64,000 nucleotides of DNA from Cyanodermella asteris (Eukaryota; Ascomycota; Lecanoromycetes; Ostropales; Stictidaceae): NCBI GenBank assembly GCA_900618795.1, contig UYJD01000007.1:944385-1008384 (forward strand). The letters are read 5' to 3'. This document shows positions 6,701-64,000 of the stretch, piece after piece. Each line of letters opens with the position of its first letter. The stretch's first letter is position 1. Under the pieces are notes generated by a model that made no database searches, was not told the origin of the DNA, and saw only the letters and a program-made list of their open reading frames with translations. A program made the translations under genes and the position numbers.

Positions 6701-7584
6701 GTCAAATCGTGTGCGCCATGCATCAAAGGTTGCTCTGGATTTCGCTTGGTAGCATGGACACGCTTGTCAGATGTGAGGAGCTCCAAAGAAAGTCTTATGC
6801 TTGCCGTCTGCCGGTGAGGGGAAGACAGCGGTGTAAGCAGGCTGACGCAGATTACTCCCTAGGTGTAGGACCTCAATCAACGCCGACTCGAGCTTCACGA
6901 CAACGTAGCCTGTCTTTCACAGTGGGTGAGCCAACATCCAAAGGATCATGACCGTCTTACGACCTGACGAATATCATTCCCTTGTCCGGGGCTTAGGTTT
7001 ACGAGGTAATCGACAAGCTGGTTATCATTCGTGTCAAATCTCAACTTAGTTCGACGGTTGAGACTCACCGCATGCAGTCAAGCACCGTTTTCGCCATCAC
7101 AATGGATGAGACAGTCAATACTGCCCATGACCATGTCAAGCACGACCTCTACTGCGAGATAGGTGTAAGACATAGGATCTTTTTACCTCTTCTGAATAGT
7201 ATTGATATCGAGCTGTTTACTGCTTGCAGTCATGCGTTGCGTGACAATGTTTAGCTGAACAAGTGGTGCAAAGCAGCACATTGCATAGGCCTCGAGTCAT
7301 GAGTCTCTCATATCTGTTCGTTATCATCACTGTATCCTTGTTCCTTTGTTCCTTTTCGTTGTGTTGATCAGGCTACATCTGCCTGAAGGCGATGACCGGG
7401 ACGACAACACACACCATTGTTTCGCCATTCTATATAGTGGATCTCCCCGATCATCCTCTCCTTCACAGGGAGCTCCCAGCAAGCGAAGATCACACAGCAG
7501 CCAAAACTTTCTGCCAACAGCCCGTGACATTCATATCACGCCGATCAGCGCTTCCACACCAAAACTCCGCCTGTTCATTTCATC
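6701..7584. other. Divergent intergenic region between PLD and the 214-aa gene
   Basis: About 880 bases separate two divergently transcribed starts (minus at 6700, plus at 7585), so it must hold both promoters. No gene is recognised. The 100 bases before 7585 contain pyrimidine-rich stretches typical of fungal promoter/5' leader DNA. Confidence 0.5.
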
Positions 7585-33420: not shown

Positions 33421-35218
33421 CTACCCCTCGACCAGTGTTGCCTTTTCACCATTGCCGAGCAACTGGAGGCTGCGCCTGGCCAAAGCAACTACCTCTGCCT
33501 CTCCGTTTTCTTCGTCTTCATGTTGCTCGTCCGCGCTGTCGATGGCCGTGTCTGCAATCTTTGTGATCATGTCCACTACGTCATCGGACCTTCGGAGAAG
33601 ATCCAGCAGTTTGCTGTCTTCAGACTCGAGCAACTGAAGAAGTGTCCAAATAGCTATGTGCTGGAAAGTTGCGTCTCCGGACTCCAAGAAGCGCCGCAGA
33701 TAGCCGTGGATACCTCCGTTAGGTTGCGTCCAGTTAGCGACGAAAGGGGAGTAGTCTCCCACTATACTGAGGTTAGCACTGGCTCGTACGCGCAAGCTGT
33801 CCGACCTCACCTTTGGAGCTCAAGTTGCCTAGCGCAGCTGCACTGTTACCTTGTACTTCCAAGCTTTTACTGTCGGTAAGCGGTATTAAGACGTCAAAGA
33901 CGCCGAGATTGAGGAGGTGGCTTTTGAGATCATCGCTAAGAGCGAGCACAGCGATAGCTGCTGTCATCTCGCTTTGCACAGTCACTGGAACCTGTAGAAC
34001 AAGCTGCTTGCACTTCTGAACAGCCCCGGCCTCCAGGACGAGCTGTTTGTTCTTGTCGCTGCTTGCGGCGAGATTTCGCAGTGTTGAAATGGCGTGGCAT
34101 TGAATTTCTTCGTTGTCCGTGCTGCCAAGCAAATTCACTAACGGACCAAGAAAGCCTGCCTCGATGATTGGCGATTCATTCTGTGGATGGATGGAAATAT
34201 TCCTGATGCATGCTACCGCAGAAAGGATGAGGGGAAGATATGAAGATTGGAGGAGGCGGAGAAGCAGAGCGAGTCCCCTGGATCTTACAATCTCGAGCTG
34301 GTATTTCTCATCTGAAGCGAGATTACGCAATGCCAGGGCGGCTTGACATTGGACCTTTGGTGAAGAGGAATCCATGAGGGCAACGAGGGACTGCACGAGT
34401 TTTGGCTCAGACTGTGCCAAACGTTTTCGGTTGGCAGCATCGACGGCGATGTTGCTGAGTGCTGTGGTGCAATAATACTGGACATCAACATCGCTAGACG
34501 AAAGGAGCTGGACGAGTACTGGAATGGCCCCGGCGTTGACAAGCTGGTTCCGGTTGTCGTCCGAATGTGTCATGTTCAACAAGGCCCCTGTAGCATTCCT
34601 CTGCACTCGCATGTCTTTCGAGCGGGCCAGACGAGTAAGTGGACCAAGTGCGCCCGATCTTGCAATCTTGGCCTTGTTCTCCTCATGTGTTGCCAGGTTT
34701 GTTATACACCCCACTGCATTACACTGTACCTCGACGTTCGGCGACATCATTTGTCTGATCAAAGAAGTAAGGCCTCCGAGCTGTACAATGGAAACTTTGT
34801 TGTCTGTGTTCACGGCGAGATTGCCGAGAGCTGCGCTTGCAGCCCGCTGGACCTCGACGTCCGAGCTACCGAGAAGCCATAGTATGGGCTGTAGGGTGTC
34901 ATTGCCAACCTGACGTACATCTCTTTCTGTAATCTCGGCAAAGGTTAAACTGGCGCTCCGTTGGAGGTCGACATTTTCTGAGTAGACGAGTGTGCTCAAG
35001 GCTTGGAGGGGCGCGCCAGAAAAGAAGTCTGTCTCTGCTCGATTCTCCAAGTACTGTAGGAGATCCGCTACAGCTTCCCGCTCGCTTTCCTCTAGGGCGG
35101 GCTCGTAGGGATCATTTCCAGATTGGCCTGACGGCGGTTAGCTGGCAAGTTGGAGGCTGAGAACAAAAGTGAATTTACCTTGGCAGAGATTCTGACAGCA
35201 AGATATACACGGGCCCAT
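33421..35218 (-). CDS. VAC8: Vacuolar armadillo-repeat protein Vac8
   Basis: Exons 35218-35179, 35127-33811 and 33761-33421, with introns of 51 and 49 bases, give 565 aa. The 40-base first exon encodes [13 protein letters not shown], carrying the N-myristoylation Gly2 and Cys4, Cys7 and Cys8 for palmitoylation, which tether Vac8 to the vacuole membrane. Exon 2 continues [24 protein letters not shown] and then about eleven armadillo repeats, for example [33 protein letters not shown] and [17 protein letters not shown]. The last exon begins [11 protein letters not shown], as in other fungi. Vac8 acts in vacuole inheritance, homotypic fusion and contact with the nucleus. Identity is certain from the repeat pattern and acylation signal. 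Confidence 0.96.
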
Positions 35219-36131: not shown

Positions 36132-39100
36132 TCAGTTGCCTCCCAAGTACCGAAGCACTTCCTGCCTCTCGCTGTCCGAGAGCAGACCCAAGATCTGTTT
36201 GACACCCTTAAGTCCTCCGTTCTTGTTGCCTCGTAGCAGCGAGGCCACTTCACTGGCGACACTGTCGTTCTTCATGCCGTCGATACGCGCGTACAGATCG
36301 TTCCTGTTCTCCTCGTACCACTGAGCCACGGCACGATCGTCCTCGTCAAAATTATCCACGCGAGCCCACTGCACGAGGTGCGCCAGATGCACCGCCCTCG
36401 TGGTCTTACCGCCGGCCGATGACATCTTCTTGAGGATGGTCTCCTCGTTGAGCCTCCGGCGCAGGCGCCAATAAAAGTAGCGACGCGCATTCCTCCATTC
36501 AATCTCCTTGCGAATGGTACCTTTTGCCGCCATGCGACCGGCACGGTCATGCAGATCGGCAAACTGCCATGCGATTTGAGAGTAGACGGGTAGGAGAAGC
36601 TCCTCGCGTTCGGTCATCTTCTTCTTGATTGCGGCCTGTTGCTCCGCACTCGCCTTGGGATCTGCAAGTTGACGTTTCAGATCACCGTAAGCAGAGTCGA
36701 GGCGCGCCATGGTCTCCAGCTGTCGATCTTTTCGATACTTGATGCCGATTAGTCCATCCGGCTCGAGGACACCTCCGCGGGCTTCGGTATCGGCATACAT
36801 CTCCATCTGATCTGGATTGATCGTCGGGTCCACGACAACCCAAGAACCGCCACGCAACTCTCCAAACGGTGGAATGTAGACAAAGATCGGTTGCTCGTAT
36901 TTGACCAAGGCGTCAACGATATAAGAACCGTATTTCAACACTTCATTGTACATGTCTCGCTGTCCGCCGGAGAAACCGCGCCAATTGGCTAGAATCATCA
37001 GTGGTAGCTGCTCTCCGTTATTGAAGTCCTGGATCGCTTGCGCTGTTTTGAATGCAGAGTTGGGATACCAAACACCACCCGCTTCTTGGGTAATCTGCTC
37101 AATGGAGTCAGGGTTAGCGGGATCCGCAGGTGTGACATTTTCGACTGATCGAGTTTCCACGCTAATGACACCGATAGGAATGCCACCAAGGCGAGCGCGA
37201 CCGCAAACAACCGTGCGCGCCCATCCTCCCAAGGACTCCCTGAACGAGTCTTTGTCGAACAGACCTGTCAGTGACCCCTCGTCATCATCCTTGCCGTTAA
37301 GCAGCCACCTAACGTCGTATGGTTGCTTGTTGGGCGGCACGTATGTCACGTCTCTGTCCCAGGAATCCGCACTGATGGAAATCGGTAGCGGAGCATGTCT
37401 CTTCTCGGGTACGAACGAGAGCCATTCCACAATTTTCATCACGCCTTGATAATCGTCCTTGGCGGTCATGTGCGATACACCGTTCTTATACATGATCTGG
37501 GTGCCGCCAAGCTGCAGATTCGAAGTGTACACCTCACGTCCAAGGAGCTTATTGATTGCAGGGGCTCCAGTAAGAATGATGGGCTGGCCATCGACTTGTA
37601 TAGCGCGTTGACCCAAGCGCACAAGATAGGCACCGATACCAACAGAGCGACAAGTCACAAGCGTGATTGTGAAGATGTCTTCGTAGGCTCGAGAGGTGGC
37701 ACCTGCGATCAGACCCGAACCCCGCAGGCATTCAACTCCCAGACCATCCTCTGCACCGATGACGGTGGTAATCTTGAATCTCTCTTCGCCGCCGTCGATA
37801 ATCTTCTCGGTAATGACACTCTTCTGTTTTCCGTCCTCAAACTGTTTCTTGGCCGCTGGCGTCAGGTACAGATACTTGAAGCCGGCTTCCGGGTTCTTGG
37901 GGTCGTTCCAAGCTGCTGAAAAGTGTTTGATCAACTCCTCGGCCATGCCCAAACGAGCACCGGAGTTTGCGGACAGATAGATACGCGGAATACCAAGCTT
38001 TCGCGCGTATTCGGTGCACTTGAAAAAGAATCTGTCTTCCTCAGGCCCGAATGAACCAATTTTGAAGGTAATGTCGTTGGCAATTATTACAAAGCGGCGG
38101 CCCTTCGGGTATTCGGGAGTTTTTGCGGTGACAACCCAAGCAACCATGCCATGGGTGTTTGTGCCGGGCTCGCGACCAACTTCAGCAAGATTGTCGGCAT
38201 CGTCCAGAACCAGCTCGGAATACTCCATGCACTCGCCAATCTGTGGGCGAATATCTTGCAAAGAAGGGTTCTCTCGAACTGCCTTTGTCCAGCTCGTCTG
38301 GAACGATTGGCGGAAGAGCTCAGGGAAGTCGTAGACGTACTGAGTTCCCATGAGGTGGGCCTTGTAACGCTTCGGCTGTAACCATTCTTTCGTCGGGTAT
38401 GGCGTGGAGACCGGGCGCAAGTGCATTGGTCCGACCTTGTTCGTGCCACCAATGTGATGGAAAAGCCATTCTCCGCCTCGGTCTGACTTCTTTTCCGCGT
38501 ACATGTCTACTTGAACAACGTAGCCAGAAGTGTTGTTGATCATGACACGAACAGGATAAACGAGTCCAGTCGTAGACTCAGTACAGATGATGCGAATCTC
38601 CGCGGCAGTGACACGAAGCCTCCAGGCACGGCGACCGAAGCGCTCCAGGAATCCAGCTAAGGCCTGCTCAACATCCTTCGGCTCAAGCGGGAAGACTGGT
38701 GAGAAGTTAATGAAAATGTGGTTGAGGTCTGAATTGTTGTTGCCAATGATTTCGAGGGCATCGAGGATGTCGCTGGTGAGGCGATCGGCTTCCGAGATGA
38801 GATACTGCAAAGTGGGAATATCGTCACGCAAATGCCCAGGGCGAACTGTTGCTCGGGTAAAGTATCTCTTGTCAACGACCTTATCGTTATCGGAACCCTT
38901 ACCAATGGCTTCGTAGACGTGGATGTTGCGATTCTCAGTGAAAACCGGCTTAATTTTGAACTTCGACAAACGGCCAAGCTCGAGCTGGAAAGCAAGTGCG
39001 GGTTCGATGTGGCGAATGCTCTCATCTTCCACAAAAGTTGGTCCACGGAAGGTGTAGTAGCCCGGGTAAGCACCACCGTGGCCACAGATGAAGGTCAGGC

Positions 39101-42100
39101 GGCGCACGCCACGAGCGGTCAGTTCTTGTCTATACGAGTCAACAATAGTGTTGATACGTTTGAGAATTTCGGCATCCTCGGTCGCCTCAGCATCAGAGAC
39201 AGCCACATTGCAGATCGCAGTCGGCTCTTCGGTCTCCGGAGACTTCCGGTCATGGGCTGATCGGTGTACGCTGCGTGGGTCTGGTAGGCCGCTGGGCGAC
39301 TTTCGTCGTGCTTGCTTGGCAAGGGGAAAGAGTTCGAGGGCACGCTGGAGATATTCGTCGGCGTCTTCGATGAACTGTACTGGTACAATTACACCTTTCC
39401 GAACCGGTGCTTCAGTGGCGTTGCCCGTCAAATAAGAAAGATCGCTGATCGAGTTGATGCATTTGAAAGGATTCGCCTCAGCCGGGGTGGTGGGTGTCGG
39501 TGGGATAGAAGGCTGAGGGATATCATATTCAGACTCACCGCCCACCTTACGGAGGAGGAAATCCCAGGAGATCATGTATGGCGGTTCCATGTCCTTGTGA
39601 TATTGAAGCTCTTTCAAGGTATATGCCTTGTATGCGCGACGAATGTACACTTCCAGTGCAGCCAAGGTGACCCAGGGATCAGAGTGCTGGAAGAACTTGG
39701 AGAGAACATCGAAGACCGTGAATTTTGAATCGACGACCTCTCGAAGGGCATGAATGTCGGGCTCGCGATGGTCGAAACCGGTCTCACCATAAGTGCTTTC
39801 AATGACCGAAGAGCGTAAAATGTGCTCCATCTGGGTCATTCGTTCCTCCATGGATGGCAAAGCGCACTGTATGAGCACCTCACGCGCTTTTAGAGCAACC
39901 TTGGCTGTGTGGCGCGACTCCAGTTCTGTAAGCTTTTGGAGAGATGGACGGAAATATTTGCCAATGTTCCCAACTCCAGGCTGGTTCGGTCTGTAGAGAT
40001 CGAGGATGGCAATGACAAGGTTGTTCTTTGCCGGAATCCGAGAATGAGACAGGACGGTTTGGATGATCTTCAAGAGGTCATCTTTGTGCTCGTCTCTGAG
40101 TCGCAGAATCACATCTTCGTCACGCGCATTACGAGTTGAGAAGAGCTTTTCGATGCGCGCGTACTCATCCAACAAATCACAAAAGACCGAGTATTCGTGC
40201 ACCTTCAAACCGTCCTCGTAGCGATCCATGACAGAGACTAGTGGCTGTAGCTGCGTTGTCAGGGTCTCTGCGTCGCCGACCGCCACGTTCTCGTCTAGGA
40301 ATCGGCTCATTGCTTTGTGCAACAGTTTCGCGGGAAACTCGGCTCTTCTAGTTCTGGACCTTTCGACGATTTGAGAAAACATGGCGCTCAGCTTCTGCGG
40401 CATGCGAGAATGCAATGCTGAGAATTGGGCATTCCACTCGCCATAGGGTAGCAATGGGTCCCTCAAAACCTCGACTAATTCCTTCAAGGTTGGCGCCATG
40501 ATGACCTGGTTATCGAAACCTTGCAGAATGTGCACCAAAACACTGTGGAGGAGGACGAAACGCTGCGGAGCCTTGTCACCCACGATCGTAGGCGGTCCCA
40601 TGTCAGGAAGCTGACCTGTGAAGGGCTGAGCATGCTTGACGCGGGACGGGTCATCCAGCGCGAGGATCCCGAGAATGTCTCCTGCTTCAAGAGTGGCACC
40701 TGGCTGCTTGAGGAATTGCACCACTCCGTCCTCCTGTGCTACGAGGGGCATGTACATCTTCATGACTTCGACCTCGGCGAAAGGCTGACCGGCGCGGGTA
40801 TGTGATCCATTTGCGACAGTGTATTTGACAAGCTTACCAGGCGAAGGAGTACGGAGCTGTGTGGGGTCATTCTCCTGCTCGAGCAAGCACGTTTTCCCAT
40901 CCACACTCATGCGGGTCGCGCCGACCTCTTCTTTCCAGTAGACGTTATGGCTCCTGCCACTAAGCAGGATCAGAAGGCCGCCATCAGCAAGAGCTCTGAC
41001 GCCGACAAGACACTTGGATCCATTGATAAACAGGTGATAGCTGTCCATACTGGCGCGAGTGGCGGTGAATTTGTAGCGGTTGCCCTCGTAAATGAACTCG
41101 ACTTGAAACACAGTCTTGAGGACGTCCTTGGCCGGCACCTGGCCCTTTTCGAGGCTCGTGCGATAGTGGGCGATGCAAGCTTCACTTTCGACATGAGCCC
41201 TCAGAACCGCACCACAGATGACTGCTAACATTGGGTCGGGACGTTCCGCAGTAAGCTTGTTGGAGATGAGCTCGTCCAGCCAGCCGGTTGTAATCGTGTT
41301 CTCCTCGAAAGCAGGTGTCTCGAGTAACTTGATGAGATACTCGATTGTTGTTCGGAAATCGCCACGGATACTCAATTCTTTCAGAGCAACAACCATGTGT
41401 TTCCGGGAAGCCGTTCGGTTCTCGCCGTAGGCGAAGATATGACCGAATTGGCTGTCGGCAAAGTTGTGAACGGCACCGCTGCTACTTAACGAGAAATAAC
41501 CCCAGACATTGGAGCTACTCCGGAAATTGAGCTCGTGCATTGTGCCGCTGGACGGCTTGAAGCCCTCGCCCGGATCTTCGGATGTGATCCTGCAGGCGGT
41601 TGTGTGACCCGTCGGCTGTGGACGTCTCTGCGTCCTGAGGCTACCTTCTTTGCTGAAGTCAAAGTCAATCTCCGAGGAACCTTTGGGATCAACGCCGTAC
41701 AGAAGGCGAATGTCACTGATGCGATGCAGCGGGAGACCCATGGCGATTTGCAGTTGTGCAGCTGGAAGATTCACGCCAGTGACCATCTCAGTCGTGGGAT
41801 GTTCAACCTGTAGACGTGGATTCAATTCAAGGAAGTAGAATTTGTCGTCTTCGTGGGAGTATAGGTATTCGACTGTACCGGCAGACACGTAGCCAACAAG
41901 CCTTCCCAGCCGAACAGCAGCCTGCTCCATCTGCTGGAACGTCACAGGTTCGGCAATGGTCACCGGGGCCTCTTCGATGATCTTTTGGTGACGTCTCTGC
42001 ACCGAGCAGTCGCGTCCAAAAAGTGAAACGTTGTTGCCGTACTCATCCGCAAGCAGCTGCACTTCTAAGTGGCGTGCATTGCTCGCCAACTTCATGATGA

Positions 42101-43098
42101 AAATGGGAGACCCGGGAACTTCACTCGCTGCAGCATTATAAGCCGCAACGAAGTTGTCGGCATTCTCGACTTTGCGAATTCCTTTTCCACCGCCACCTTC
42201 GGACGCTTTGATCATGACCGGAAACCCAATTTGTTCAGCTTTCTCAAGACCTTCTTGAGGCGAGTGTGTACATCCACGATCATAGACATCATCGGCAACA
42301 GTGACAATGCCATTGTCGTCAACTTCGACCGAATCCACGCCCTCGCCAGACCAGGGAATACAAGGGACCTTGGCGTGCTGTGCAACGATCGTGGACGAGA
42401 TCTTATCACCCAAAGAGCGCATGGCTGATCCGGGCGGCCCTATGAAGACGATCTTTTTGGGGGAGGCGGCAAGTGATTCTGGCAACTTGGGATTTTCCGA
42501 GGCGTGACCCCTGAACGACGTTAGCAGCGTTCAAAACCGAATGCCTCCGCGCGGGAACTTCCTTACCATCCTGCCCACACAGCGTGCACATTCATGCGCT
42601 CTGCGACATCGACTATGAGCTCAACATTGGCGTAGTTGTTGTTGTTGGTTCCGCCAGGCACCTCCACATACTGATCCGCCATGCGAATGTAATCTGCATT
42701 TGCCTGCAAATCTTCTGGCGTGGCCATGACGGTGAACTGGATGGCTCGCTCGTCGCCAAATGTCTGGTATGCCCATTTTCGAACCGATCGTATTTCCTTC
42801 ACTGCGGCGATTCCGTTGTTCGCGATCAGAACCTGGCAAAGGGGTCAGCAAGGGCCTCGAGATTGAACAAGCAATGCTCGACGTCAAAACTTACCGAGGT
42901 GATGACAGTATGCCCGTCGTGGTTCTTGACAAAATCCTTCACCTTGCTTTCCGGGGCGACTTTCAGGTGGTTTCCGCCGATGAAATGCGGAGGTAGCTCG
43001 AACCTGGATGAGTACGAACCGGCTGACCTGCTTTTGGCATCGCCGTTCACGGCGTGAGAGCCATTGGGCCGGGAGAGCGACCCGTTGGTGCTGGCCAT
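36132..43098 (-). CDS. ACC1: Acetyl-CoA carboxylase, multifunctional cytosolic
   Basis: Exons 43098-42895, 42832-42567 and 42510-36132, with introns of 62 and 56 bases, give 2282 aa, normal for fungal ACC. The enzyme makes malonyl-CoA, the committed step of fatty acid synthesis. The N-terminus has [20 protein letters not shown], then [20 protein letters not shown] (biotin carboxylase entry), the Gly-rich ATP-binding loop [10 protein letters not shown], and [13 protein letters not shown]. The biotinyl site reads EVMKMYMP, with the modified lysine at residue 741. The C-terminal half is the carboxyltransferase ([39 protein letters not shown] split over the domain). ATG 43098 lies in GCCATGG. A 3.1 kb gene-poor region lies upstream. 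The gene supplies malonyl-CoA for lipids and any polyketides. Confidence 0.97.
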
Positions 43099-47298: not shown

Positions 47299-48823
47299 CT
47301 CGTGAGACTGGCAACGGAGTATCTGACGAGCCATCTACTGGCCGCGTGATCTCCTCCCGCAGTAATAACCTCGAGTTGATGATTCAATTATTTCGCGATT
47401 TCCAAGCATGTGAGACTTTGAGATCAAGTATTGGCGGATCTGACGTTTACCGGCCAAAAAGCCAGATTTTATAGCAGTTGCAAATACGCAATAGATTTGT
47501 AACCTGTATAGAAGGTATACTAGCTTGTAGAGAACCTAAAGCTCTCTAGGTCTTCTACACGAAGAATATTTCTAAAATTTATCAGGCGTGAGTAACCGTA
47601 ACTAGTACGACCTCGATCTATTTTTCGGCAGAGTTCAAATATGACGCCCTGCGAAAATAGGCTCTGAACATCGCTCTATATCACACAACTATACTCTCGG
47701 CTCTTCATCTGATTATCTTCTACTGAATAATTATATACGTACCAATCAATTACCTAGATTATATCTATAAGGTTACATGCATTTAGGATGGCTTAAAGCT
47801 TGTTGCGCGCTGATCTTAAGTCGCAAAATTATGCGTTTTGGCTGTGAAAAGCGGGATTCGCGAATACCTCCGTCTGGTAACCTGTAGAGAAGCGATTGCA
47901 GAAACGCACCGGGGAGAAGATGCGCAGAGGCTCATGCTAGGTACTTCGAGACACCCCTTTGTCAGGCCAGTAGGGACAGAAAGCCCGAGCAGGGAGCGAC
48001 AAGCGACAGGCCGTCGGTCGCTTTGTCGTCCCAGGTACTTGAACACGGCCTGCTGGGTATCTCTCGAGCGTTTTAGGTGTTCGTGCGCATGGGCTGCACG
48101 ATTCAACGAATTGGGCAAGCTTGCCTAGCGCTGCGGCCCTGTTGTGAGCAGGTACCCCCAGTACTTGGCATTTGAGAAGCGGAGCGCTGTTGCAAAGTTT
48201 ACAAATCTGGTGTCAGGTGCTTGAGCTGAAGAGGGCAATCACGTTTTCGAAGGCGGCGCAGGCAGGCAAGCTCGGCATGCCCAGGCCGCGATGAGTAGTC
48301 AGCAAAAAAACGCATTGCGGACGAGGCATTACTTGTGCTGCTTGATTGCCCACTTTCCACCTTACATCATCCAGCCTGTCTACGTTTCACGTCGCAGCAA
48401 AGCCGTCTTCCAGTTTTATAACCTAGACATTGGAACTCAAGCCCTGTCAGACCCCACGTCTACTCAGTGACAAAACTTTTGTTGCGCCCGGGACTTTGTG
48501 ACAAGCCACGGCACATCAAACAGCCTCTTTTCGAGCGGACATTCGAACGAGCAGAGTTTATGTATTCGTCCCGCAAAGGCCACCATATACACCATCAGCC
48601 TCTCAAGCTGCACCTATTCCCCATACCGCGAAGGCCTTGTATGCCGACGAGGTCAAACGGTTAGCGCCTTCAAAAGTACAATCATCTCTCGGTACCTTAG
48701 ATCGAGCCCAAGACCGCTTGATGTGGACTCCATCATCAGCAAGCATCATACTATCAGCCGCAGCCCGCCCGGTTGATCCCTACAGCGCCTCTAGCCCACA
48801 AATACGTTGAAATAACCGTCAAG
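47299..48823. other. Intergenic region with AT-rich part
   Basis: 1.5 kb between the SDR end and the eIF5 start. The first half is AT-rich (see separate feature); the second half has normal composition and must contain the eIF5 promoter and leader. Overlapping frames at 47816-48128 on both strands show no known protein. Confidence 0.5.
47430..47810. repeat. AT-rich island, possible RIP-mutated repeat remnant
   Basis: About 380 bases are markedly richer in A/T and in TA dinucleotides than flanking DNA, resembling the AT-rich tail at the window end. No terminal repeats or coding remnant seen. Origin as a decayed repeat is inferred. Confidence 0.45.
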
Positions 48824-50150
48824 ATGGCTACCATTAACATTCGTCGGGACATCTCCGATCCCTTTTATCGCTACAAGATGGAGCGCCTCCAGTCCAAGAT
48901 AGAGGGAAAGGGAAACGGAATCAAGACAGTCATCGTCAACCTTAGTGGGGTTGCTCAGTCTTTGGCACGCAGCCCCAACTATGTGATCAAGTATTTTGGG
49001 TTCGAGCTTGGCGCACAGACAAACACCAATCCGTCCGATGACCGTTGGATCATCAATGGCGCGCACGATGCCGCAAAGCTGCAAGATCATCTCGACGGCT
49101 TCATCAATCGATTTGTTCTATGCAAGAAGTGCAAGAACCCAGAGACAGACTTTGTTCTCAAGGACGGTCATATTCAGCTCGACTGCAAGGCCTGCGGGCA
49201 ACGTTCTGATGTTGATCTCCGCCTCAAGCTAAGCAGCTTCATCCTGAAGAACGAGACGTCGAGCAAAAAGGGGAAAAACAAGGGTGACAAGAAGGCTCGG
49301 CGTGCGGCAAAACAACAAGCAGCCCATGCCCAACAAAACGGGCACGGAAACGGCTCAGGCAGCAACTCTGACAATGCCGAAGACGAAGAGGACGACGGTG
49401 CAATGGAGGCTGGCAGCGATGACGAACTCACTCGCCGCATCAATGCCGAAGCCCAAGACATTGACGAGCCCCAGGAAGTCAAGGATGATGAATGGAACGT
49501 GGATGTTTCCGAGGAAGCCGTCAAGGCCCGTGCCAAAGAATTGCCTGATGATTTGAAACAAAAGCTCGCTTTTGACGAGGATGACGAAAATGGCGACGGC
49601 GAGGGCGGCAGCAGTGCGTACGATCAGCTAGGCAGCTGGATCATTGATGCTGCAAAAGAAAAGGGAAGTGTTGTGAAAGTGTCTGACGTCGATATCTACC
49701 TCAAGGCCAAGGAATACGGCATCGAAAGCAAGCACAAGACCCTCACGGTGCTTGCTCAAACTGTTTTCGACGAGAACATCGCCACTCAAATCGAAGGCCG
49801 CGCCAGCATGCTCAAGAAGGTCAGTGATTATAGATGATGTGCGGCGTTGGGTTGTGACTGACTGCTCGCAGATGATCACTTCGGAGAAACACCAAAAGGC
49901 CTTCCTCGGTGGTCTTGAGCGCTTCGTCGGAAACGAACATCCGAATCTCATTGCTCAAATTCCCAAAATCCTATTGCCGCTCTACCAGCATGATCTGGTC
50001 GAGGAGGACACTCTCAAGAGCTGGGGATCCAAGGCTAGCCGGAAGTATGTGGATATCAGCATCAGTAAGAAGGTCCGCAAGGCTGCTGAGCCATTTTTGC
50101 AATGGCTGGAAAATGCCGAGAGTGACGAGGAAGAGTCCGAAGACGAGTGA
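48824..50150 (+). CDS. TIF5: Translation initiation factor eIF5 (GTPase-activating protein for eIF2)
   Basis: Exons 48824-49819 and 49872-50150, with a 52-base intron, give 424 aa. The N-terminus INIRRDISDPFYRYKM carries the arginine finger (Arg16 here, Arg15 in yeast), followed by EGKGNGIKTVIVNL and YVIKYFGFELGAQT. A zinc ribbon has Cys100, Cys103, Cys121 and Cys124. A Lys-rich then acidic linker (about 150-260) leads into the C-terminal W2/HEAT domain, ending in the aromatic-acidic tail FLQWLENAESDEEESEDE that contacts eIF2-beta and eIF3. eIF5 triggers GTP hydrolysis on eIF2 at the start codon. ATG 48824 lies in an AAGATGG context. Confidence 0.96.
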
Positions 50151-54016: not shown

Positions 54017-56132
54017 TCAGCCAATTATATCGACCCCAACCACTGGCTGCTCTGCTGGGAGTAGCCGCAAGCCCTCGAGGACATACGCCAAGAGGTTGAG
54101 CAGACCATAGAATATCATGGGCACGACACCAAAGAAGAAATTTCCAGTCATGCCACGCCTCAAGATCGTGTCTAATAATTCTGTCTTGGCAACTTGCGCC
54201 GCGTTGGACGATGCGAAAGGGCCTGTCAGTCGGTAGAAACTGACAAACGAAGCACCAAAGCAATAAATCAGCACAACCTTGAGTCCGTGGACTTGCCAGA
54301 GCTCGCAGAGGCCTGGAGCACCTCCAAAGTCTTTCGCAAGAACACTCATGTACGTGCTGTAGTCAACGCCGTACTCAATACGAGCCCCAGGCTTCGCCAA
54401 AAGCCTGTAGTGTCCGGCGGTTTCGGGAACGCTCATCTTTCCGGTGAGTAAAGCGGTCCACCACATGGCTTGCTGTTCAGCGATTGGAGGAATAGCCCCT
54501 ACACCCGGCCGAACGAACCCGATGAAAGCAATATCTGGTCGATCTGACTTGATGATGTTACGCACATTTGCCTGACCTGAAGTTGGGTACGAACTGTTCA
54601 GCCACGCAAAGTCTTGCTGATACCTGTGACTACATTAGCGTCTGCGATCTTCGATTTAGGCTTCTTGGCAGGTTTGGGCTGGCCATGACCGGCTGCAGTT
54701 GAGATCCTTGCGGACCGGACCGTGGGGACGGGTTCCGCGCTCGGGTGTAGTGCAATGCTTCTGCAACGACTGTATCTGCCATGTACTTGACACGGGATAC
54801 TCGAGGCTTTGCTTGTTACTGCTGAATGGATTGCGCAAATGCTATTGGGGATGGAGGATTGAACTCACCCAGTAGCATACACCAGCAGCGATGGACGGCA
54901 CTCGCGGTCCTGCTTTTCGTATCTCAGATAGTCTTTCCGTTGAGAAGGTTCGAAGTGTACTCTTCCAGTAGCGTCGAAGTGACTTGAAAAGGTGCAGGTA
55001 TCAATCCAGCGCGTGGACTTTGCGTCTTCCGGCGGATCGATGTACTCGTTGCCCATCCATTCTAACAGTGCCTGCTTCTGCTTATATGGTCGATTGAGAT
55101 ACGGCATTGCCTTGTGGCTCTTGTTCAAAAATACGTAGGAGCGTCCAAGAATCTCATTCGGCAAGGCGCCAACATACTGGTTACAGCCCTCTTGAGAACC
55201 TGTCAGGAACCACATGACTTTCTTAATAACGACGTCGGATATCAGGGATCGCAGTCGCCACTGCCGGATTGTATGGTGTACATATGATGTTTCGAAAAGA
55301 TTTGTGATAAGGCCGTCGATAGGAAGACTACCGCCAAACGTCGTACCAAAGACACGAAAGCGGTTCAGGACTTTTGGAAAGGACAGGAAACCGGTCCTGA
55401 AGCTCATAGTGACCGACTTTGCAGGGGCCTTGACAGCCTCATAAGCAATGTCCATTGCCGTTTCGCCACAACCCAGAATCAACACATCCTGTCCTTCGAG
55501 TTGTGAACGGGCTTTGTAAGCCGATGAGTGCATAGATTTGCCACGAAAGTGCTCGACTCCGCTGATGTGAGGTACACTAGGCTGTACGTGTAAGCCAGTG
55601 CATATTGCCAGGTGTGTACAATCAAAGTGTTTCGGCGGGGACGAATTTCCAAGCTCCTGATACCGTACGCGATGCGCAAATTCACTGGGCCCTTCCGCTA
55701 GCGGGGATATGTCAATCACTCTACTTCCAAGGGACACGTAGGGGCCGAGGGTAAATCTGTCGACATAGGACCGGAGGTACTCGACGTAATCGGGCAACGA
55801 AACATGATCACCAAAAGTGCTTGGAAACCGATGGTCTGAGAATGCTGTGAGTTGCTTCGAGCTCACAAGCTCGGCATTCTCGTAAGATCGGTATCGGAAG
55901 GTTCCGCCAATGTCATCTTCGCTGTCTTGTCTCAGCGGCATGCAATCTCGAAATCGCAAGATGGTTCGTACGCTTCAAATATCCGGGCTTCGATCGTGTG
56001 ATCGCGCGTGGATGCTTCCAGGAGGGTTTTGAGAGTCACCAAGCCGGCTGGCCTGTGGATGTTAGCCCGAGTCAGCGTCAAAAAGCCGTGATCTTACCCG
56101 GCGCCAATTATTGCCACTCGTGTGCTACGCAT
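54017..56132 (-). CDS. Flavin-containing monooxygenase (dimethylaniline monooxygenase-like)
   Basis: Four exons, 56132-56098, 56052-55972, 55930-54869 and 54623-54017, give 594 aa; introns are 45, 41 and 245 bases. Exon 1 encodes MRSTRVAIIGAG and splicing completes the FAD motif GAGPAG (10-15). FRGKSMHSSAY at about 167 is the FMO signature FxGxxxHxxxY, and ILGCGETAMD at about 192 is the NADPH fold. IGGTFRYRSYENAELVSS is typical of fungal FMO-like enzymes. Family members oxygenate N, S or carbonyl centres. Two hydrophobic segments near the end (around SFYRLTGPF and FFFGVVPMIFYGLLNLL) suggest membrane attachment. It is divergent from the amine-oxidase-like gene and probably in the same cluster. 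The long third intron may hide an extra exon. Confidence 0.85.
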
Positions 56133-56728
56133 GACGAACAGCACAGTATTGCGAAATAGGCAAAGCGAGCGGAATTTTGGTATCGGGTCCCGAAAACAGA
56201 AAGCAGTGAGCCCGAGAATGTGTACGCCTTGTCGTTCGTGTACGAGCACAACAGCCAGGTGTCGCTGGCAAGGCAAGCAAAGTGAAAGTCGATCGTCGCC
56301 TGTTGCTGCTGCTCAGGATTAACAAGCTTACCTACGCTGATGGCGGATGAGGCGACAAACTTCAGCTAATAGATCCAGTTACATCACGACCGCGTCGAAG
56401 AGTATGGCTAGAGAGGGGCACGGGCGGCTGCAGAGCATGGGTCCATACACGGCATGCTTTGCCTGTATCGCTTCTGGATTCTGAATCCAAAAACAAAACT
56501 CGAGCTGTTCTGGAGCGTCGAGGTGGGCCGGTTGCCCTTGCACCCCGCGACCACGAGTCCACAAAAGGCAGGTCTCAAAAGGATGCGCTAGCCGAGGCGA
56601 GCGATGCGCAAACCTTTCGAGACATGTTTGCTCGGACAGCACACTATACCTGCACAGCGAAAAGTATCACAGGAAGAACGTAGCAGCATCCCAGTCATCC
56701 CGTCGACGCCAGTGCTAATGTTGACGCC
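56133..56728. promoter_or_regulatory. Divergent promoter of the FMO and amine-oxidase-like genes
   Basis: 596 bases separate start codons transcribed in opposite directions. It contains CGG-N3-CCG at 56184-56192 inside an 11-base inverted repeat (TCGGG T CCCGA, 56183-56193), the type of inverted CGG site used by Zn2Cys6 regulators, and a second inverted repeat with 7-base arms (TGGATTC T GAATCCA) at 56475-56489. Joint control of both genes is inferred. Confidence 0.5.
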
Positions 56729-58220
56729 ATGGGTCAACAGGCAAAGCAGAGATCGGTAGCGGTCATAGGAAGTGGCATGGCAGGCCTGGTCACCGCATTT
56801 CTCCTGTCCCAGGACCCGCTGCAAAGGTACAATGTTGAGGTTTTTGAGAAGGTGAGACGACGGTCCGCACAATGTACTCGCGGCTGAAGAGCAGGGAATA
56901 TAGAGGCTGACAAGGATGTCCAGGGTTCGCGCGCATCGCTCGATGCGGCATCCGTCTCTGTTGAAAACCGCTCCACTGGTCGACAGGAGCGCATTGACGT
57001 GCCTATGAGAGCATTCAGCGAAGGCTACTACTCGAACCTGAAGCGCATGTACGACTTTCTCGACATTCCATATCGACGGCAGCGAATACTATTTGCATTT
57101 CGAAAACTTCATAGCACCGACTTGACCACATCCAAGTCATCTCTGCACGGCGACAAGCCTCCGCCAGCTCCCGTTTCCACTTACTTTGTCCACGCCTCCA
57201 ACAATCATGCTTTCCCTCCAATCCGACCGTCAGGCCTGCATATACTCGCCTACGTTATCCGGCTGCTGTGGCTAGCCATCTGCTATTTGTGGTTCGCCAT
57301 AAGCTGTTACCTGTATCAGGCGGGTGACAATGAATCGTTGGATGCATGGCTCCAGAGGACGCATCAGTCCAGACCTTTCGTGCGGGAATACCTTGTCCCA
57401 CTACTATCAAGCATATGCACGTGCTCGCACCTCGAGGTACCGCAAATTGATCGAGAGCCAGAATGAACAAGGAAGTGTGCTGATCATTATCAAGATACTC
57501 AACTTCCCTGCAAGAGATCTCGTTGATTACAGGAAACGAATCATGGGCGGCGAGCAGTTCGTGTGTTCAAATGGGGTCCAAGAGGTTCAGGGCAAACTAC
57601 TTGCCAAGTTGAAAGTCAAGTACAATGCTCATGTCATTTCCGTGGAACCATCTCGCACGCAGGTTTCCATAAAGTGGCTCTCGGAAGATCTCGCGACCCG
57701 CTCGAGCTCGTTCGATCATGTCGTCCTCGCCATGTCTCCGGATGTTGTCGCTCGAATTTTCAGCCCCCTCAGAACCACGCTTTCAAATATCCCGGTACTG
57801 CCTATCACGACCACGACACATTTTGACACTGGGAGAATCGATGCGCCAGTAACATACTCGAACAACGTAGCCCAGATCATTTACCTTGACACAGGAAGTG
57901 ATATGCGCTTGACAGAGGCCACGCACGTCCTTGACTCCGGGGTCATGGTAACGACGTCGCCGCTAAGGCCAATTGCACAGGCAACGGTCCACGGACAACA
58001 TACTTTCACCCGCGTGCTTAGAACTGTCTCAAGCAGGCAAACAGTCAACAACATTTTTGGACCATGTCACGGATCCGGGAATGACGTTAAATGGAGAAAT
58101 GGCGATCTCGGCGTATGGCTAGCTGGTGCATGGTGTTGGGATGGCATGGTTTTGCTGGAGGGCTGCATTACATCCGCAATACGAGTAGCCAGGGGCTTAG
58201 ACATAGATATTCCTTGGTAG
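56729..58220 (+). CDS. Amine-oxidase/desaturase-like FAD oxidoreductase, membrane-associated
   Basis: Exons 56729-56851, 56924-57436 and 57495-58220, with introns of 72 and 58 bases, give 453 aa. The dinucleotide motif is VAVIGSGMAGL (GSGMAG at 14-19), followed by VEVFEK with the FAD-binding Glu. RAFSEGYYSNLKRMYDFL and the C-terminal GVWLAGAWCWDGMVLLEG, with Gly-Ala-Trp and a following Gly-containing turn, resemble the flavin amine oxidase subgroup that in bacteria partners cyclopropane-type methyltransferases. A strongly hydrophobic segment at about 147-171 (HILAYVIRLLWLAICYLW) is a likely membrane anchor. The acceptor of intron 1 could also be ten bases upstream (phase allows it). The next gene encodes a methyltransferase on the same strand. 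Substrate unknown; a lipid is inferred. Confidence 0.8.
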
Positions 58221-58554
58221 CACCGTTTTATTGCAACAAATATCTTGAGAAAGAGCAATGGACACTAGGTTGCATTCGGCCACGGCGAATTTCCTGATCT
58301 CAAGTCGACGGCACGTGGGAAGAACGACTTCCTGGCTAACTACGAGACGGCGTAAACATCATCGACATCGCTGCCAAATCCTGTAGGGCTGAGCACAAAC
58401 GCGGCCCAAGCTTTTTTTTTTTTTTTTTTGGCGCAGACTAGTTGTGCCTCCGTCCCACCACCGACCCACGTAGGTTCTTGCCAGCAGCAATGCCCTCAAA
58501 TCCGAGACACCACTGTCGTCGCATGGCCACTTGGGCGCTTGGTCAACAGCGATC
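58221..58554. other. Short intergenic region with an 18-base T tract
   Basis: 334 bases between the flavoprotein gene and the methyltransferase start. An uninterrupted T18 runs 58412-58429, about 125 bases before the chosen start codon, and could serve as a nucleosome-excluding promoter element. A frame open upstream of 58555 leaves room for an unrecognised 5' exon. Confidence 0.55.
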
Positions 58555-59797
58555 ATGCTCGCCATATTGATATTCTTGAGCATTGGCCTGGCCCTGTCGT
58601 ATTACATGAGCATGCGACCATCTGGGGTGACTCTGGTAACTTTTGCTCTCGGCCTCATGACACCACGACTACTCAAGACAGTCGTAGGTCAATTGCTGAA
58701 CCAGCGATCCACAAAAGATGATCGCATCTACGGCCTGGAACATGGGGTTCTCAATCTAGCCTTGCCACCCGCAAGCATGTGGATGAATTTCGGCTTCTGG
58801 AAGCATTCGGTATAGCACGCCTCCTACGTGACTCTAGCGAGCGCATTGAGACTCGAAGCTGACACGGACATTAAAATAGCCTGCCAATTTTGCCGAGGCG
58901 TGTGCTGCGCTGCTTGAAGAGTTATTTCTCGTGGCCGAATTGGCCAGCAGGCAAGGAGAGAAGCTGATCCTCCTCCACAACATTGACGTCGTGGATGTGG
59001 GCTTCGGCTGTGGTGACCAAAGTCTTCATTTGCACAACTTGAGTAGTGGCTTGCATGGTGCTGCCCGCACTCCAGGTGCTCACCAACCTGAAAATTCAAA
59101 CAAAGTCGGTAGTCAGCGGAGACAGATCAACCAGTACGTCGGAATCACCGCGAACGAGAGGCAATTCAATTTCGCTTTGCAGCGCTTCCTCGATGCTGGG
59201 ATCTCTCCGTTGATGTCGACTGGCCATCGGAAGGGACATCCCGTCTTCAAAATCTTTGCTGCCGATGCCGCGCAGCCAGAAAAGTGGCGGCCTGATCTCA
59301 AAGAAGCCATCGAAAACATTCACGTTCGTTCGTTACAAGGACATGAAACCTGGCTGCTTGGCTTAGACTCGATGTATCACTTTTCTCCATCCAGAAGACC
59401 AATCTTTGAGTACGCACAGCGAAAGCTTCGAGCATCCATTATGGCTTTTGATCTGATGCTTCCGGACGAAGCCTCAAGCCTGTTTGACAAGCTCCTCCTT
59501 CGGGTCTTTTATTCTGCCACTGGCACACCCTACGAAAATTTAATGACTACCCAGCAATATCGTGAGCTGCTCCGAGATGTCGGCTACAAAGACGTCATGA
59601 TAAGTGACATCTCTGAGCATGTTTTCGAACCCCTTGTCGACTATCTCAGAAACCAGGACGCAAGGTTACAAATGATAGGCAAGGGTATTGGAGGCTTTCG
59701 AATTGCGGCCTGGGTTCTCTCTCGTTGGGCTCACGTTGGTTCGGTACGCGCCTGTCTCGTTGTGGCACGACACCCAGACGGGCCCCGACATAGCTAG
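58555..59797 (+). CDS. Membrane-anchored SAM-dependent methyltransferase (cyclopropane-synthase-like)
   Basis: Exons 58555-58809 and 58880-59797, with a 70-base intron (AGCTGAC branch), give 390 aa. The first 40 residues hold two hydrophobic stretches (MLAILIFLSIGLALSYYM and GVTLVTFALGLM), likely membrane anchors. YGLEHGVLNLAL and MWMNFGFWKHS precede motif I, VVDVGFGCGDQ (about 122-132). YVGITANERQFNFA and FAADAAQP follow as the SAM-adenine and acidic motifs, then LGLDSMYHFSPSR. The architecture resembles class I lipid or cyclopropane-fatty-acid-type methyltransferases. The start is the first Met in frame after 58475; an upstream exon is possible. It follows the amine-oxidase-like gene on the same strand and ends 53 bases from the membrane-protein gene. 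Substrate unknown. Confidence 0.78.
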
Positions 59798-59850
59798 CAG
59801 GATCCGGAGACAATCATGAGCGGCAATGCTTGGACTGAGTCTGACATTCA

Positions 59851-61040
59851 TCAAATCTTCTTAGTCTTGACCGTGGTTGCCTGCTCGGTTGGTCTCGAAA
59901 TGGTAGTCCATACCAGGAAGCTTATTGTACACAAAAGCGAGTCCCAGCCGACGCTGCTAACTGCCGGATGATCGTACAAAGCCGCCAATACATTCCAGAA
60001 AGGTGAAAGCTGCCTAAGCTCGGGCTGAGCTGTTCGGACCTCATATACGATCGAATGGCGGTGACAATGTGTTTCTCCGGGATTGCTGAAGACATTAACC
60101 AGTGTTTGAGCCTGGGCACAGCTGCCTAGGACAATTATGACCCAGTAGAATCTCTCATAGCTGGACTTGGACTCGCGTGCCGAGCTGATCTCTTGATACT
60201 TGTTGACTGGCCGAAGGAGTGGCAGGAACAACGCAAGATGAGGGACGGCAAGTACTGGAAGAAAGTACTTTGTATTTGAGACGTGAGGCAGGAGTCCCAC
60301 GCTAATGACGGTCATAATCGCTGGGGCAACGTCGAAGACAACCCAAGTAGTCTCCTGTCTGTTGTTGGTAAACCCGAGTTTCTTCGAAGAGCGAGGTGAG
60401 GCTCTAGCAGAAGTGCCCGGGGCGCATCCTGCTTGCGCTATGACAATAGCTAGAAAGAAGAGATTCATGGCAAACGATATAGCGACGATTTGGCCCAAGA
60501 GCATATACATCCAAAGACCTCGAATTTGCCACGACCGTCCTGTGCAAATATGAGCAAATGTCTGTTGTCATAGACAGAAAACCCACCTTCACGAGCTAAG
60601 AACGTACTCCAGGCTGCCGTGAAGAAGAATATAGGCTGGCTCCAAAAGAGCCGTGAGTGTGTCTCAGTCGTGACCTCCCACGCATCACGAAAGAGCTGAA
60701 CATCGCTCAGCCACTGTCCGAGCTTTAGGTCGAGGATCCATCGAGCCACGGTCGTTGCAGAGGTTTGCTGAACATGTAGATTCTCTAGACGCCATGCGCG
60801 GTAAGACAGGCAGAAGAATTGGATCATATAAAACCAGGTAACGCAAAGGCTCGCCACTGTGAGGCCCGCGGTGATGAACAGAGCTCTGCGTTGCGGTCTC
60901 AGTGCAGCATGCTTATAGCCGTGAAGCAAAGACTTGCTGATGACACAAGTCAAACCTAGGCAGGTTGTTAAGTACGACAAGAATATCGCTATTCCACGAA
61001 TCTCCTGTCGTGTGATCGTTTCGCACTTTGTTGACTCCAT
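59851..61040 (-). CDS. Polytopic integral membrane protein, function unknown
   Basis: Exons 61040-60587 and 60539-59851, with a 47-base intron, give 380 aa. Seven or eight hydrophobic segments are visible: GIAIFLSYLTTCLGLTCVI, ITAGLTVASLCVTWFYMI, WSQPIFFFTAAWSTFL, LLGQIVAISFAMNLFFLA, VVFDVAPAIMTVISVGLL, FLPVLAVPHLALFLPLL, YWVIIVLGSCAQAQTLV and perhaps a last one near residue 360. The splice fuses REG to RSWQIRGLWMYMLL in the middle of a membrane region, supporting the model. I do not recognise the family; it lacks obvious MFS or ABC motifs. It is convergent with the methyltransferase, so shares the neighbourhood of a membrane-lipid or metabolite modification cluster; a transport or membrane-scaffold role would be a guess. 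Confidence 0.72.
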
Positions 61041-61949
61041 AATTGAGACTGATGACCGACAGACTGGAGGCTTTGATTCGCAGAATCAACAGAATTGGAA
61101 ATGCTTAGGTGAAAGCCTCGGACTTGTAGGTCGAGATTGTGGATCGGCTACAATAGCAGCTGCAGGTTCCGTTTCGACCCCAGTGTAANNNNNNNNNNNN
61201 NNNNNNNNNNNNNNNNNNNNNNNNNNNNNNNNNNNNNNNNNNNNNNNNNNNNNNNNNNNNNNNNNNNNNNNNNNNNNNNNNNNNNNNNNNNNNNNNNNNN
61301 NNNNNNNNNNNNNNNNNNNNNNNNNNNNNNNNNNNNNNNNNNNNNNNNNNNNNNNNNNNNNNNNNNNNNNNNNNNNNNNNNNNNNNNNNNNNNNNNNNNN
61401 NNNNNNNNNNNNNNNNNNNNNNNNNNNNNNNNNNNNNNNNNNNNNNNNNNNNNNNNNNNNNNNNNNNNNNNNNNNNNNNNNNNNNNNNNNNNNNNNNNNN
61501 NNNNNNNNNNNNNNNNNNNNNNNNNNNNNNNNNNNNNNNNNNNNNNNNNNNNNNNNNNNNNNNNNNNNNNNNNNNNNNNNNNNNNNNNNNNNNNNNNNNN
61601 NNNNNNNNNNNNNNNNNNNNNNNNNNNNNNNNNNNNNNNNNNNNNNNNNNNNNNNNNNNNNNNNNNNNNNNNNNNNNNNNNNNNNNNNNNNNNNNNNNNN
61701 NNNNNNNNNNNNNNNNNNNNNNNNNNNNNNNNNNNNNNNNNNNNNNNNNNNNNNNNNNNNNNNNNNNNNNNNNNNNNNNNNNNNNNNNNNNNNNNNNNNN
61801 NNNNNNNNNNNNNNNNNCGTGAGTCCCCGACTGACGGCCCCTTCCTATGTCCGTGACACCCGTCTAACCCACAATCTTGGCGTCTCGTTGATTCGACGAT
61901 CGGCTACACCACTAACTTCGCGGATTATTAGAACGCTAAGAGACATGGA
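61041..61949. other. Intergenic sequence with a 629-base assembly gap (61189-61817)
   Basis: Upstream of the membrane-protein gene. Only about 150 bases before and 130 bases after the gap are readable, with no gene. The gap sits where normal-composition DNA changes to the AT-rich region. Confidence 0.6.
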
Positions 61950-64000
61950 TTTCGCTCTGCGCCGCTATAAACACGTTTAGCATAGTTCTAAAGCAGTTTA
62001 AGGTTAAGGATAAAATCTAGTGCTACTTTCTCTACTTTATTTGCGTATTAGATTTAATAGCTGTAGCTGCCTAGATAGAGCTATAAGGATAGAGTATTGC
62101 TAATGCCAAAGCTATAGTGCCGTTTTAGAGTCACTTGCTAATCTATATTTAGTGTAGTATACTCTACAAGATTTAGTTATAAAAGCATATATTTACAATT
62201 AATAAGGAAATTTTATGTTTTTATTTACGCTATAAATTAAGTACGAGGTGATATAAGGTCTAATGATAAGTAACTAGCTAGTCAGCTAGCTAGTCAACTA
62301 ACTAGGTCACTATTTGCTATAGAATCTCTATTAGTAGCTTACTATTAAATAACATTATAGGTAGAAATCTATCTAGAATACTTAGCAAGATAGTTTTAAG
62401 AGTTGAATAAGCTGAACCGTAAGCTCTGCGTCTACGAGATAATAGTTGAGTGGTTAAATTACTATTCAAAGCTTAGTAGATTAAATTAGTAGATTTCTAC
62501 ATACTATTACCGCCTCATTTAGTAGAATATTTGATAGTTTAACAGCTTATTAAAACTTGACTGGAGAATCTAAGTGTCTATCTATATAATAGGTAGTAAG
62601 TAATATCGTAGCTAAGATAGCTATTAAACTGGTTGATAACCATGTTACTAGTCTAACCTAGTAGAATTAGTTAATTAAATTAGCTAGTACTAAGTAAATT
62701 TAATAGATTTTAAGTCGACTTAGTAATTAACTTATCTAAGGTGAGCGTTTTAATAGTTGATATGCTAAGCTTGATTAAGAAAATATTGCTACGCTAAGCG
62801 ATAATTACTAAACTATAGTTAGTTTACAGTTGACTCTAAACGCGAATAATTAAGCTATATATAGCGTAAAACGTAGCTAATTTGACCTCAACATAACCCC
62901 CCCCCCCCTTTTTTTTAATGAATTAAACTAAGATTAGGTTGATAGTAAGTTCGACAGTTATCTAAATAGAGCCTTAGCTAGTTTTGATTATATATTAGAT
63001 AGCTAAATTAGTAAATACACTACTCTAGTCACTTTCCTAAGCGTAGCTAAATGATAAGTAAAGAAGTCGAATATAAAAAACGCTTAACCAGACGTTCAGC
63101 TACTTTATAGATAATTTTTTTGTATTTTAAAAGCTATCGTAGGCGATTAATCAAAAGTAAAAGTAAACGAAATATCTAAATATAACAAAAAATCTCTATA
63201 AAAAAAACTATAAAAAAACTAGGCTAACTAAGTTCTCTTAAGGGTTTTGACTTTAGAAAGTTTTCTTAGGCGACTATAGCTAGAACTATAGTATATAGCA
63301 CATAGATACTTTAGCTAAAATCGCCCGTTCTAGCTTTTTTTTTCAAATGCTTTTTTTCCCGTATAAAAATGTAGCTTAGCTATGGCTTGGCTGTGACAGT
63401 GCTTTTATAATTAGGCTGAGCATAATCATCACGAGAAAAGTTGCCTTAAATAGTTTCATTGTGAAGTCTAATCATAATCTATTTGCTTTAGTTAGTGTTA
63501 GCTGATTTAACTCCTTAACTCCATTAGATTAAGGCAACCACCTGAATAGTTACTAACTGGCCTTAAGTTCTAGATCACTTTGAGGTGGACGCGATATACG
63601 TAGTATTATGCAGCATTACCATCAAAAATTTCTAACTTTTTATACTGTACTACAGCAATAAAATATTGCTTTATTCTATCAGCTATGCAATGTAGTTGCT
63701 TGCTTTCTCAGTCTATTCTACAATCATAAATGACATGTCATGTTATCATAACCTTGCAGATTCTTAGAGATAGCGCTTTATTGATTGACGACAGTACCGC
63801 TCAAGTGGCAATGCGTGATATTATTACTATGTCATAGAGTAAAAAGTACATAATTGTGCTCACTTGCCTAGCTACTTTCACATCTTTAAGTACGACAGCT
63901 TAGAAATGCTTCTAATGCTTTAATATTACTTTACTAAGCGTGATTTTTAGAAGGATACTGATCACTTTGATGGAAAACGTGGCTCCTGACTATTGTTAAT
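61950..64000. repeat. AT-rich, probably RIP-mutated repeat DNA running off the window
   Basis: About 2 kb to the window end is strongly AT-biased, full of TA, TAG, CTA and AGCTA-like words, poor in CA/TG, and has no long open frame. It contains CTAGCTAG-type runs near 62277-62310 and a C12T8 tract at 62897-62916. This pattern is what repeat-induced point mutation leaves in ascomycete transposons. The original element cannot be named from sequence alone; no terminal repeats are seen inside the window. Confidence 0.7.

Follow-up and report, generated by a model that had tools for sequence, protein, structure and literature searches.

Four apparently membrane-associated genes beside TTI1

At positions 54017–61040 of a window of 64,000 nucleotides (the whole stretch of DNA analysed here) from the ascomycete Cyanodermella asteris, four adjacent and apparently intact genes, numbered 1 to 4 from left to right, encode a flavin-containing monooxygenase (FMO), a second flavoprotein, a methyltransferase dependent on S-adenosylmethionine (SAM) and a polytopic membrane protein (table 1). 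An earlier note, made from the bare sequence, had placed such a set between TTI1 and a region altered by repeat-induced point mutation (RIP), and both borders are borne out: the left neighbour matches the TTI1 families PF21547, PF24173 and PF24181, and the RIP composite index, which lies between -0.41 and -0.94 across the four genes, rises within 62000–63400 (GC 0.30) to +1.18 in one half and +1.23 in the other, and is -0.06 at 63400–64000. The gene models are open and GT–AG spliced, and were picked by reading frame and splice consensus, without transcripts; alternatives existed for intron 1 of gene 2, the start of gene 3 and the intron of gene 4. Genes 1 and 2 diverge from starts 596 bp apart, gene 3 follows gene 2 in tandem after 334 bp, and genes 3 and 4 converge with a gap of 53 bp. 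By hydropathy, hydrophobic segments are present in all four gene products, in agreement with the membrane-associated appearance noted earlier. Intron 3 of gene 1 (54624–54868) has 245 bases, the remaining introns of the four genes 45–72.

Gene 1 matches the FMO-like family of Pfam at 7.6e-37 and carries GxGxxG, a second nucleotide site, FxGxxxHxxxY and ATGY, with sites for both flavin adenine dinucleotide (FAD) and NADPH in place; it thus has the signature of an FMO rather than of a Baeyer–Villiger enzyme. Two hydrophobic segments lie near its C end, and its relatives in bacteria, of which two of 627 records were opened, were uninformative. Gene 4 was rightly called a polytopic membrane protein: it has five hydrophobic segments above threshold and matches DUF2834 (PF11196) at 1.8e-9 and 38.1 bits (cut-off 22.9), the best stretch being 40–92 of 96, which gives this domain a first context in a fungus.

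Gene 2 belongs to a side branch of the UfaD group

The claim of two divergent flavoenzymes stands for the FMO and gene 2 as such; what has to be given up is the label ‘amine-oxidase-like’ for the latter. Pfam reports NAD_binding_8 (9.2e-14) and Amino_oxidase (3e-8), but trees, profiles and motif set gene 2 apart from plain amine oxidases and place it in a side branch of the UfaD group that lacks the motif GGH. UfaD itself is the flavoprotein with which bacteria, in making furan fatty acids, desaturate a methylated acyl chain (PMC7380195).

In a first tree of 42 rows, gene 2 groups with 15 canonical UfaD-like proteins (a set defined by operon layout and without the R. sphaeroides UfaD) at a support of 97/96, which becomes 100/99 once six outgroup rows are removed (36 rows). 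The final tree of 43 rows joins it to ten bacterial proteins at 99/95 (98% of 200 bootstrap trees), and this side branch and 16 canonical UfaD-likes together form one more inclusive group at 100/100. On a profile of the ten bacterial side-branch proteins with gene 2 left out it scores 137.2 bits, these ten having been selected with a profile that contained gene 2; its scores are 81.0 bits for canonical UfaD, 28.4 for amine oxidases, 17.0 for HpnE and 6.9 for CrtI. On these lower scores a general amine oxidase, an HpnE relative and a CrtI relative were each rejected, and the trees leave gene 2 outside the amine oxidase and HpnE clades, CrtI being placed in the 36-row tree only. Gene 2 is 21–25% identical to canonical members. 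All 15 canonical UfaD-likes have GGH, whereas gene 2 shows the marks of the side branch, i.e. its first Rossmann unit is not followed by GGH, and its C end is of the LLE type. It also contains, besides the Rossmann strand, a hydrophobic insertion at residues 148–166 (hydropathy 2.03) of a type found in none of the 15 (highest value beyond residue 60, 1.25). Fungal proteins like gene 2 that lack GGH probably exist.

The profile scores also bear on the idea that the cluster handles amines or xenobiotics by means of an FMO, an amine oxidase and an N-methyltransferase. The presumed FMO signature of gene 1 and the weak Amino_oxidase match of gene 2 would fit, but amine oxidases score well below both the side branch and canonical UfaD, and we regard this idea as very unlikely.

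Gene 3 and its relatives

The earlier assignment of gene 3 as a SAM methyltransferase is sustained by its SAM motif I and by bacterial relatives; the protein has one N-terminal hydrophobic helix. Searches with gene 3 gave no Pfam family at E≤1, one methyltransferase of NCBIfam at 0.11 and no solved structure below 0.87, and an AlphaFold model of its second exon was discarded at a mean pLDDT (predicted local distance difference test) of 41.6. On a profile of six bacterial methyltransferases linked to side-branch flavoproteins, from which gene 3 was left out, it scores 78.7 bits; with 0.5 bits on a CFAS profile it is not CFAS-like. An N-terminal helix like that of gene 3 occurs in two of these six (G663 and G698) and is lacking in the other four. 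Gene-3-type methyltransferases were found in 5 of 274 genomes of the class sample, 3 of 398 of the phylum sample (E≤1e-10) and 21 of 194 of the order sample.

Relatives of genes 2 and 3 are linked in bacteria

The earlier note had proposed that the genes form a functional unit, and for genes 2 and 3 this gains support by a route it did not name, namely linkage of their relatives in bacteria. An Oleispira metagenome-assembled genome with a gene 3 relative (29% identity over the alignment in a genome scan, 25% by tblastn) also has, at contig ends, two incomplete flavoprotein frames with the features of gene 2: no GGH, ICTC, and LLE near the C end. Separate queries, one by tblastn with the Oleispira flavoprotein piece and one with the Oleispira methyltransferase, reached one and the same pair in Acinetobacter (L090), where a FAD-binding protein (matching gene 2 over 462 aa at 22.7% and 7e-15) and a methyltransferase (matching gene 3 over 287 aa at 26% and 4e-11) lie on the same strand, 4 bp apart. 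An A. baumannii record without annotation holds the same pair with the methyltransferase split over two frames. A Leptospira plasmid carries a gene-3-type methyltransferase whose end meets that of an unannotated flavoprotein piece. This Leptospira piece (L021:7786-8730, minus strand) is fused to or follows PAS-like residues, lacks the N-terminal Rossmann part and looks like a remnant.

The side-branch profile scores at least 300 bits in 10 of the 194 genomes of the order sample and at most 209 in the rest. Five of the nine side-branch loci opened there (L131–L139) contain a gene-3-type methyltransferase, at a distance of 2.1 kb in G663 and 5.8 kb in G698 and as overlapping frames in G343, G665 and G752, of which the last two are near-copies; with Acinetobacter counted, such linkage is found in six of the ten bacterial side-branch loci of the final tree. 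Seen from the other side, a UfaD-group flavoprotein lies within 6 kb of 4 of 14 order-level gene-3-type methyltransferases (in G663, G698 and the two closely similar G818 and G798) and was absent from the stretches opened around the other 10; the neighbourhoods opened in G510 and G428 likewise showed no flavoprotein. Across the order sample, side-branch proteins (10 genomes) and gene-3-type methyltransferases (21 genomes) occur together in 5 genomes against 1.1 expected (hypergeometric P 0.0016, or 0.008 with one near-copy removed), values that are too favourable because G001 and G663 contributed profile rows.

Since both families are linked in the fungus and in several bacteria, a joint function of genes 2 and 3 is, on this comparative evidence, very probable. 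That all four genes are functionally unrelated neighbours seems very unlikely, given the linkage seen in Acinetobacter, in Leptospira and in a number of further bacteria. A described flavoprotein–methyltransferase module of this kind, or a product of such a set, was not found in searches of an open-access library, in line with the earlier note, which knew of no product. The ‘amine-oxidase-like’ label thus gives way to a testable two-gene module, whose bacterial counterparts can be studied in laboratory hosts.

Relation to furan fatty acid operons

With gene 2 as query, tblastn matched 47 records among 72,556 plasmids, all of them below 30% identity, and 14 of these were opened, 12 annotated and two without annotation that were examined by profile. 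These neighbourhoods of canonical UfaD-likes are arranged like the furan fatty acid operon: all 14 include a SAM methyltransferase, of CFAS type or other, in the 5–6 kb opened, with gaps of 241–2243 bp in the 12 annotated ones, and 12 of 14 include DUF1365, as the next gene in seven of the 12 annotated and about 4.8 kb off in three. Many are from Rhizobiaceae, so that they are not independent. In this operon UfaO, a DUF1365 protein, adds oxygen (PMC7380195). At two loci of the order sample (L121 and L123), a gene-3-type methyltransferase lies 1.6–1.7 kb from a canonical UfaD–DUF1365–CFAS operon; this methyltransferase could be an additional lipid methylase resembling FufM.

Like UfaM–UfaD–UfaO, the fungal cluster combines a UfaD-group flavoprotein with a SAM methyltransferase and has an oxygenase gene nearby. 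It differs in that gene 2, as a side-branch protein, lacks GGH and has an extra membrane helix, that gene 3 is not CFAS-like, and that an FMO and a DUF2834 protein are present instead of a DUF1365 protein, of which the window showed no sign. A CFAS profile of 14 operon neighbours gave no significant six-frame match in the window, and the best six-frame score for DUF1365 there was 4.3 bits (such a gene may lie elsewhere in the genome); as controls with proteins outside their training rows, the two profiles gave 409.6 bits on a CFAS and 275.0 bits on a bacterial DUF1365. Since the window thus showed neither a UfaM-type nor a UfaO-type gene, the assignment of the set to furan fatty acid synthesis was rejected. 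The bacterial side-branch neighbourhoods, too, have no CFAS-type or DUF1365 gene, their weak CFAS-profile matches being the linked methyltransferases themselves. Among eukaryotes, Arabidopsis has proteins related to Ufa and FufM, namely AtUFAMD1, AtUFAO1 and LIME1, which reside on lipid droplets and have been compared with canonical UfaM, UfaD, UfaO and FufM (PMC10940516).

A possible lipid-modifying module

The earlier suggestion of a lipid- or membrane-linked modification remains the favoured one, with the substrate itself inferred: a lipid chain is preferred on two grounds, the membership of the side branch in the UfaD group and the short distance between gene-3-type methyltransferases and canonical UfaD operons. 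We tentatively propose, at somewhat less than even odds, that genes 2 and 3 are a core module, common to this fungus and bacteria, which modifies a long hydrophobic (e.g. fatty acyl) chain at the membrane, and that genes 1 and 4 are additions. Gene 3, anchored via its N-terminal helix, would transfer the methyl group of SAM to the chain; gene 2, reaching into the membrane with its extra helix, would abstract hydride such that a double bond is made or shifted; in this fungus the FMO would then add oxygen at the expense of NADPH and O2, and gene 4 might keep the enzymes in place or transport the substrate. More specific, and rather unlikely, would be an undescribed module of the fungus, Pseudomonadota and a spirochaete plasmid making methyl-branched, conjugated or furan-like lipids without CFAS methylase or DUF1365 oxygenase, to which the fungus added FMO and DUF2834. 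The two-gene module as such offers a genetic entry point to unusual lipids that are not marked by the signature genes on which cluster finders rely.

Several observations weigh against a shared lipid module. No lipid gene adjoins the Acinetobacter pair, and the Leptospira pair may be dead because its flavoprotein lost the N-terminal part. Four of the ten bacterial side-branch loci are without a gene-3-type methyltransferase at E≤1e-4, one of them on a 7.7-kb contig, and G663 is not an independent case, as the search profile (A9) contained gene 2 and L117. Taken singly, the linked methyltransferases of L134 (E 0.37), L136 (0.006) and L137 (0.004) fail to match gene 3, and the branch of gene 2 in the final tree is long (2.9). 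The two operon-linked methyltransferases of L121 and L123 count as one event because their UfaD-likes are 90% alike. No homologue of gene 1 or 4 was found in the nine loci L131–L139. Finally, a profile of gene 2 and canonical UfaD-likes matches LkcE at 1.2e-68; the likeness arises through this joint profile, whereas gene 2 alone has no match to LkcE at E≤1.

LkcE is a non-lipid enzyme (the lankacidin amine oxidase), and its match leads to an alternative in which genes 2 and 3 act jointly on a specialised metabolite such as a terpenoid, an alkaloid or a small acyl compound, gene 3 as O- or N-methyltransferase and gene 2 as LkcE-like oxidase. A profile of gene 3 and five bacterial relatives ranks MitM and structure 3bus (presumably RebM) ahead of a CFAS, but this match, like that of LkcE, stems from a profile of mostly bacterial rows. 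Two relatives of gene 3 adjoin genes for non-ribosomal peptide synthetases (NRPS) or polyketide synthases (PKS), yet differ from those paired with side-branch flavoproteins. The side-branch neighbourhoods contain alpha/beta hydrolases and no CFAS-type or DUF1365 gene, which would suit a non-lipid substrate; in the window, a scan of ten large open reading frames (not every frame) yielded no domain of a PKS, an NRPS or a terpene synthase, and the earlier statement that such genes are absent holds to this extent. We consider a non-lipid substrate possible, though on the doubtful side.

Alpha/beta hydrolase genes recur near bacterial side-branch flavoproteins, namely in L011, L117, L136 and L138, and also in L139.

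The place of genes 1 and 4

The bacterial pair (Acinetobacter, Oleispira-order genomes) resembles the fungal cluster in the adjacency of the gene 2 and gene 3 relatives; unlike the cluster, it was seen without an FMO or DUF2834 partner, often with an alpha/beta hydrolase instead. Genes 1 and 4 may thus be fungal additions or chance neighbours, and their role in any pathway is a guess. That only genes 2 and 3 form a unit is a minority reading of some weight, which overlaps with the others such that the respective odds do not sum to one. It agrees with the absence of gene 1 and gene 4 homologues from those nine bacterial side-branch loci and with the seven bacterial DUF2834 neighbourhoods opened (of 15 listed), none of which has a CFAS or DUF1365 match. 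On the other hand, gene 1 diverges from gene 2, gene 4 ends close to gene 3, all four products have hydrophobic segments, and fungal additions need not be kept by bacteria.

In one DUF2834 neighbourhood (L044:6327-7985, minus strand), the gene adjoins a protein weakly matching the UfaD profile (22.3 bits). DUF2834 as a link to UfaD-type systems was rejected, this being the only such match in seven of 15 places.

Surroundings of the cluster

Recent transfer from bacteria is not supported, the GC content at third codon positions of genes 1–4 being near that of TTI1 and gene 2 lying outside its ten bacterial relatives. Viral scans found no relative. Several other genes of the window are of housekeeping type (table 1).

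Table 1. Features of the window and of two bacterial loci (L121, L123); positions refer to the window unless a locus is named.
Feature	Positions	Strand	Basis and remarks
Gene 1, flavin-containing monooxygenase, 591 aa, 4 exons	54017-54623, 54869-55921, 55972-56052, 56098-56132	-	Pfam, motifs
Intergenic region between genes 1 and 2	56133-56728		coordinates; 596 bp, possible shared promoter
Gene 2, flavoprotein, 453 aa, 3 exons	56729-56851, 56924-57436, 57495-58220	+	trees, profiles, motif
Gene 3, class I SAM methyltransferase, 390 aa, 2 exons	58555-58809, 58880-59797	+	SAM motif, bacterial relatives; start codon uncertain
Gene 4, polytopic membrane protein, 380 aa, 2 exons	59851-60539, 60587-61040	-	PF11196, hydropathy; intron end uncertain
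AT-rich RIP-mutated stretch bordering the cluster	62000-63400		GC 0.30, RIP composite index +1.18, +1.23
PLD-like gene	3644-6766		domain match
BRCT protein gene	8350-10710		domain match
EF-Tu-like GTPase gene	31148-32275		domain match
Armadillo repeat protein gene	33776-35137		domain match
eIF5/eIF2B domain gene	48722-49834		domain match
Methyltransferase and UfaD–DUF1365–CFAS operon	L121:5212-11320; L123:284-6505		order-level neighbourhoods

Two runs of N occur in the window, one of 25 at 2631–2655 and one of 629 at 61189–61817, between the cluster and the RIP-mutated stretch, where it could conceal part of another gene. An acetyl-CoA carboxylase gene (36135–42530, minus strand) lies about 11.5 kb from the cluster, a proximity that is probably coincidental.

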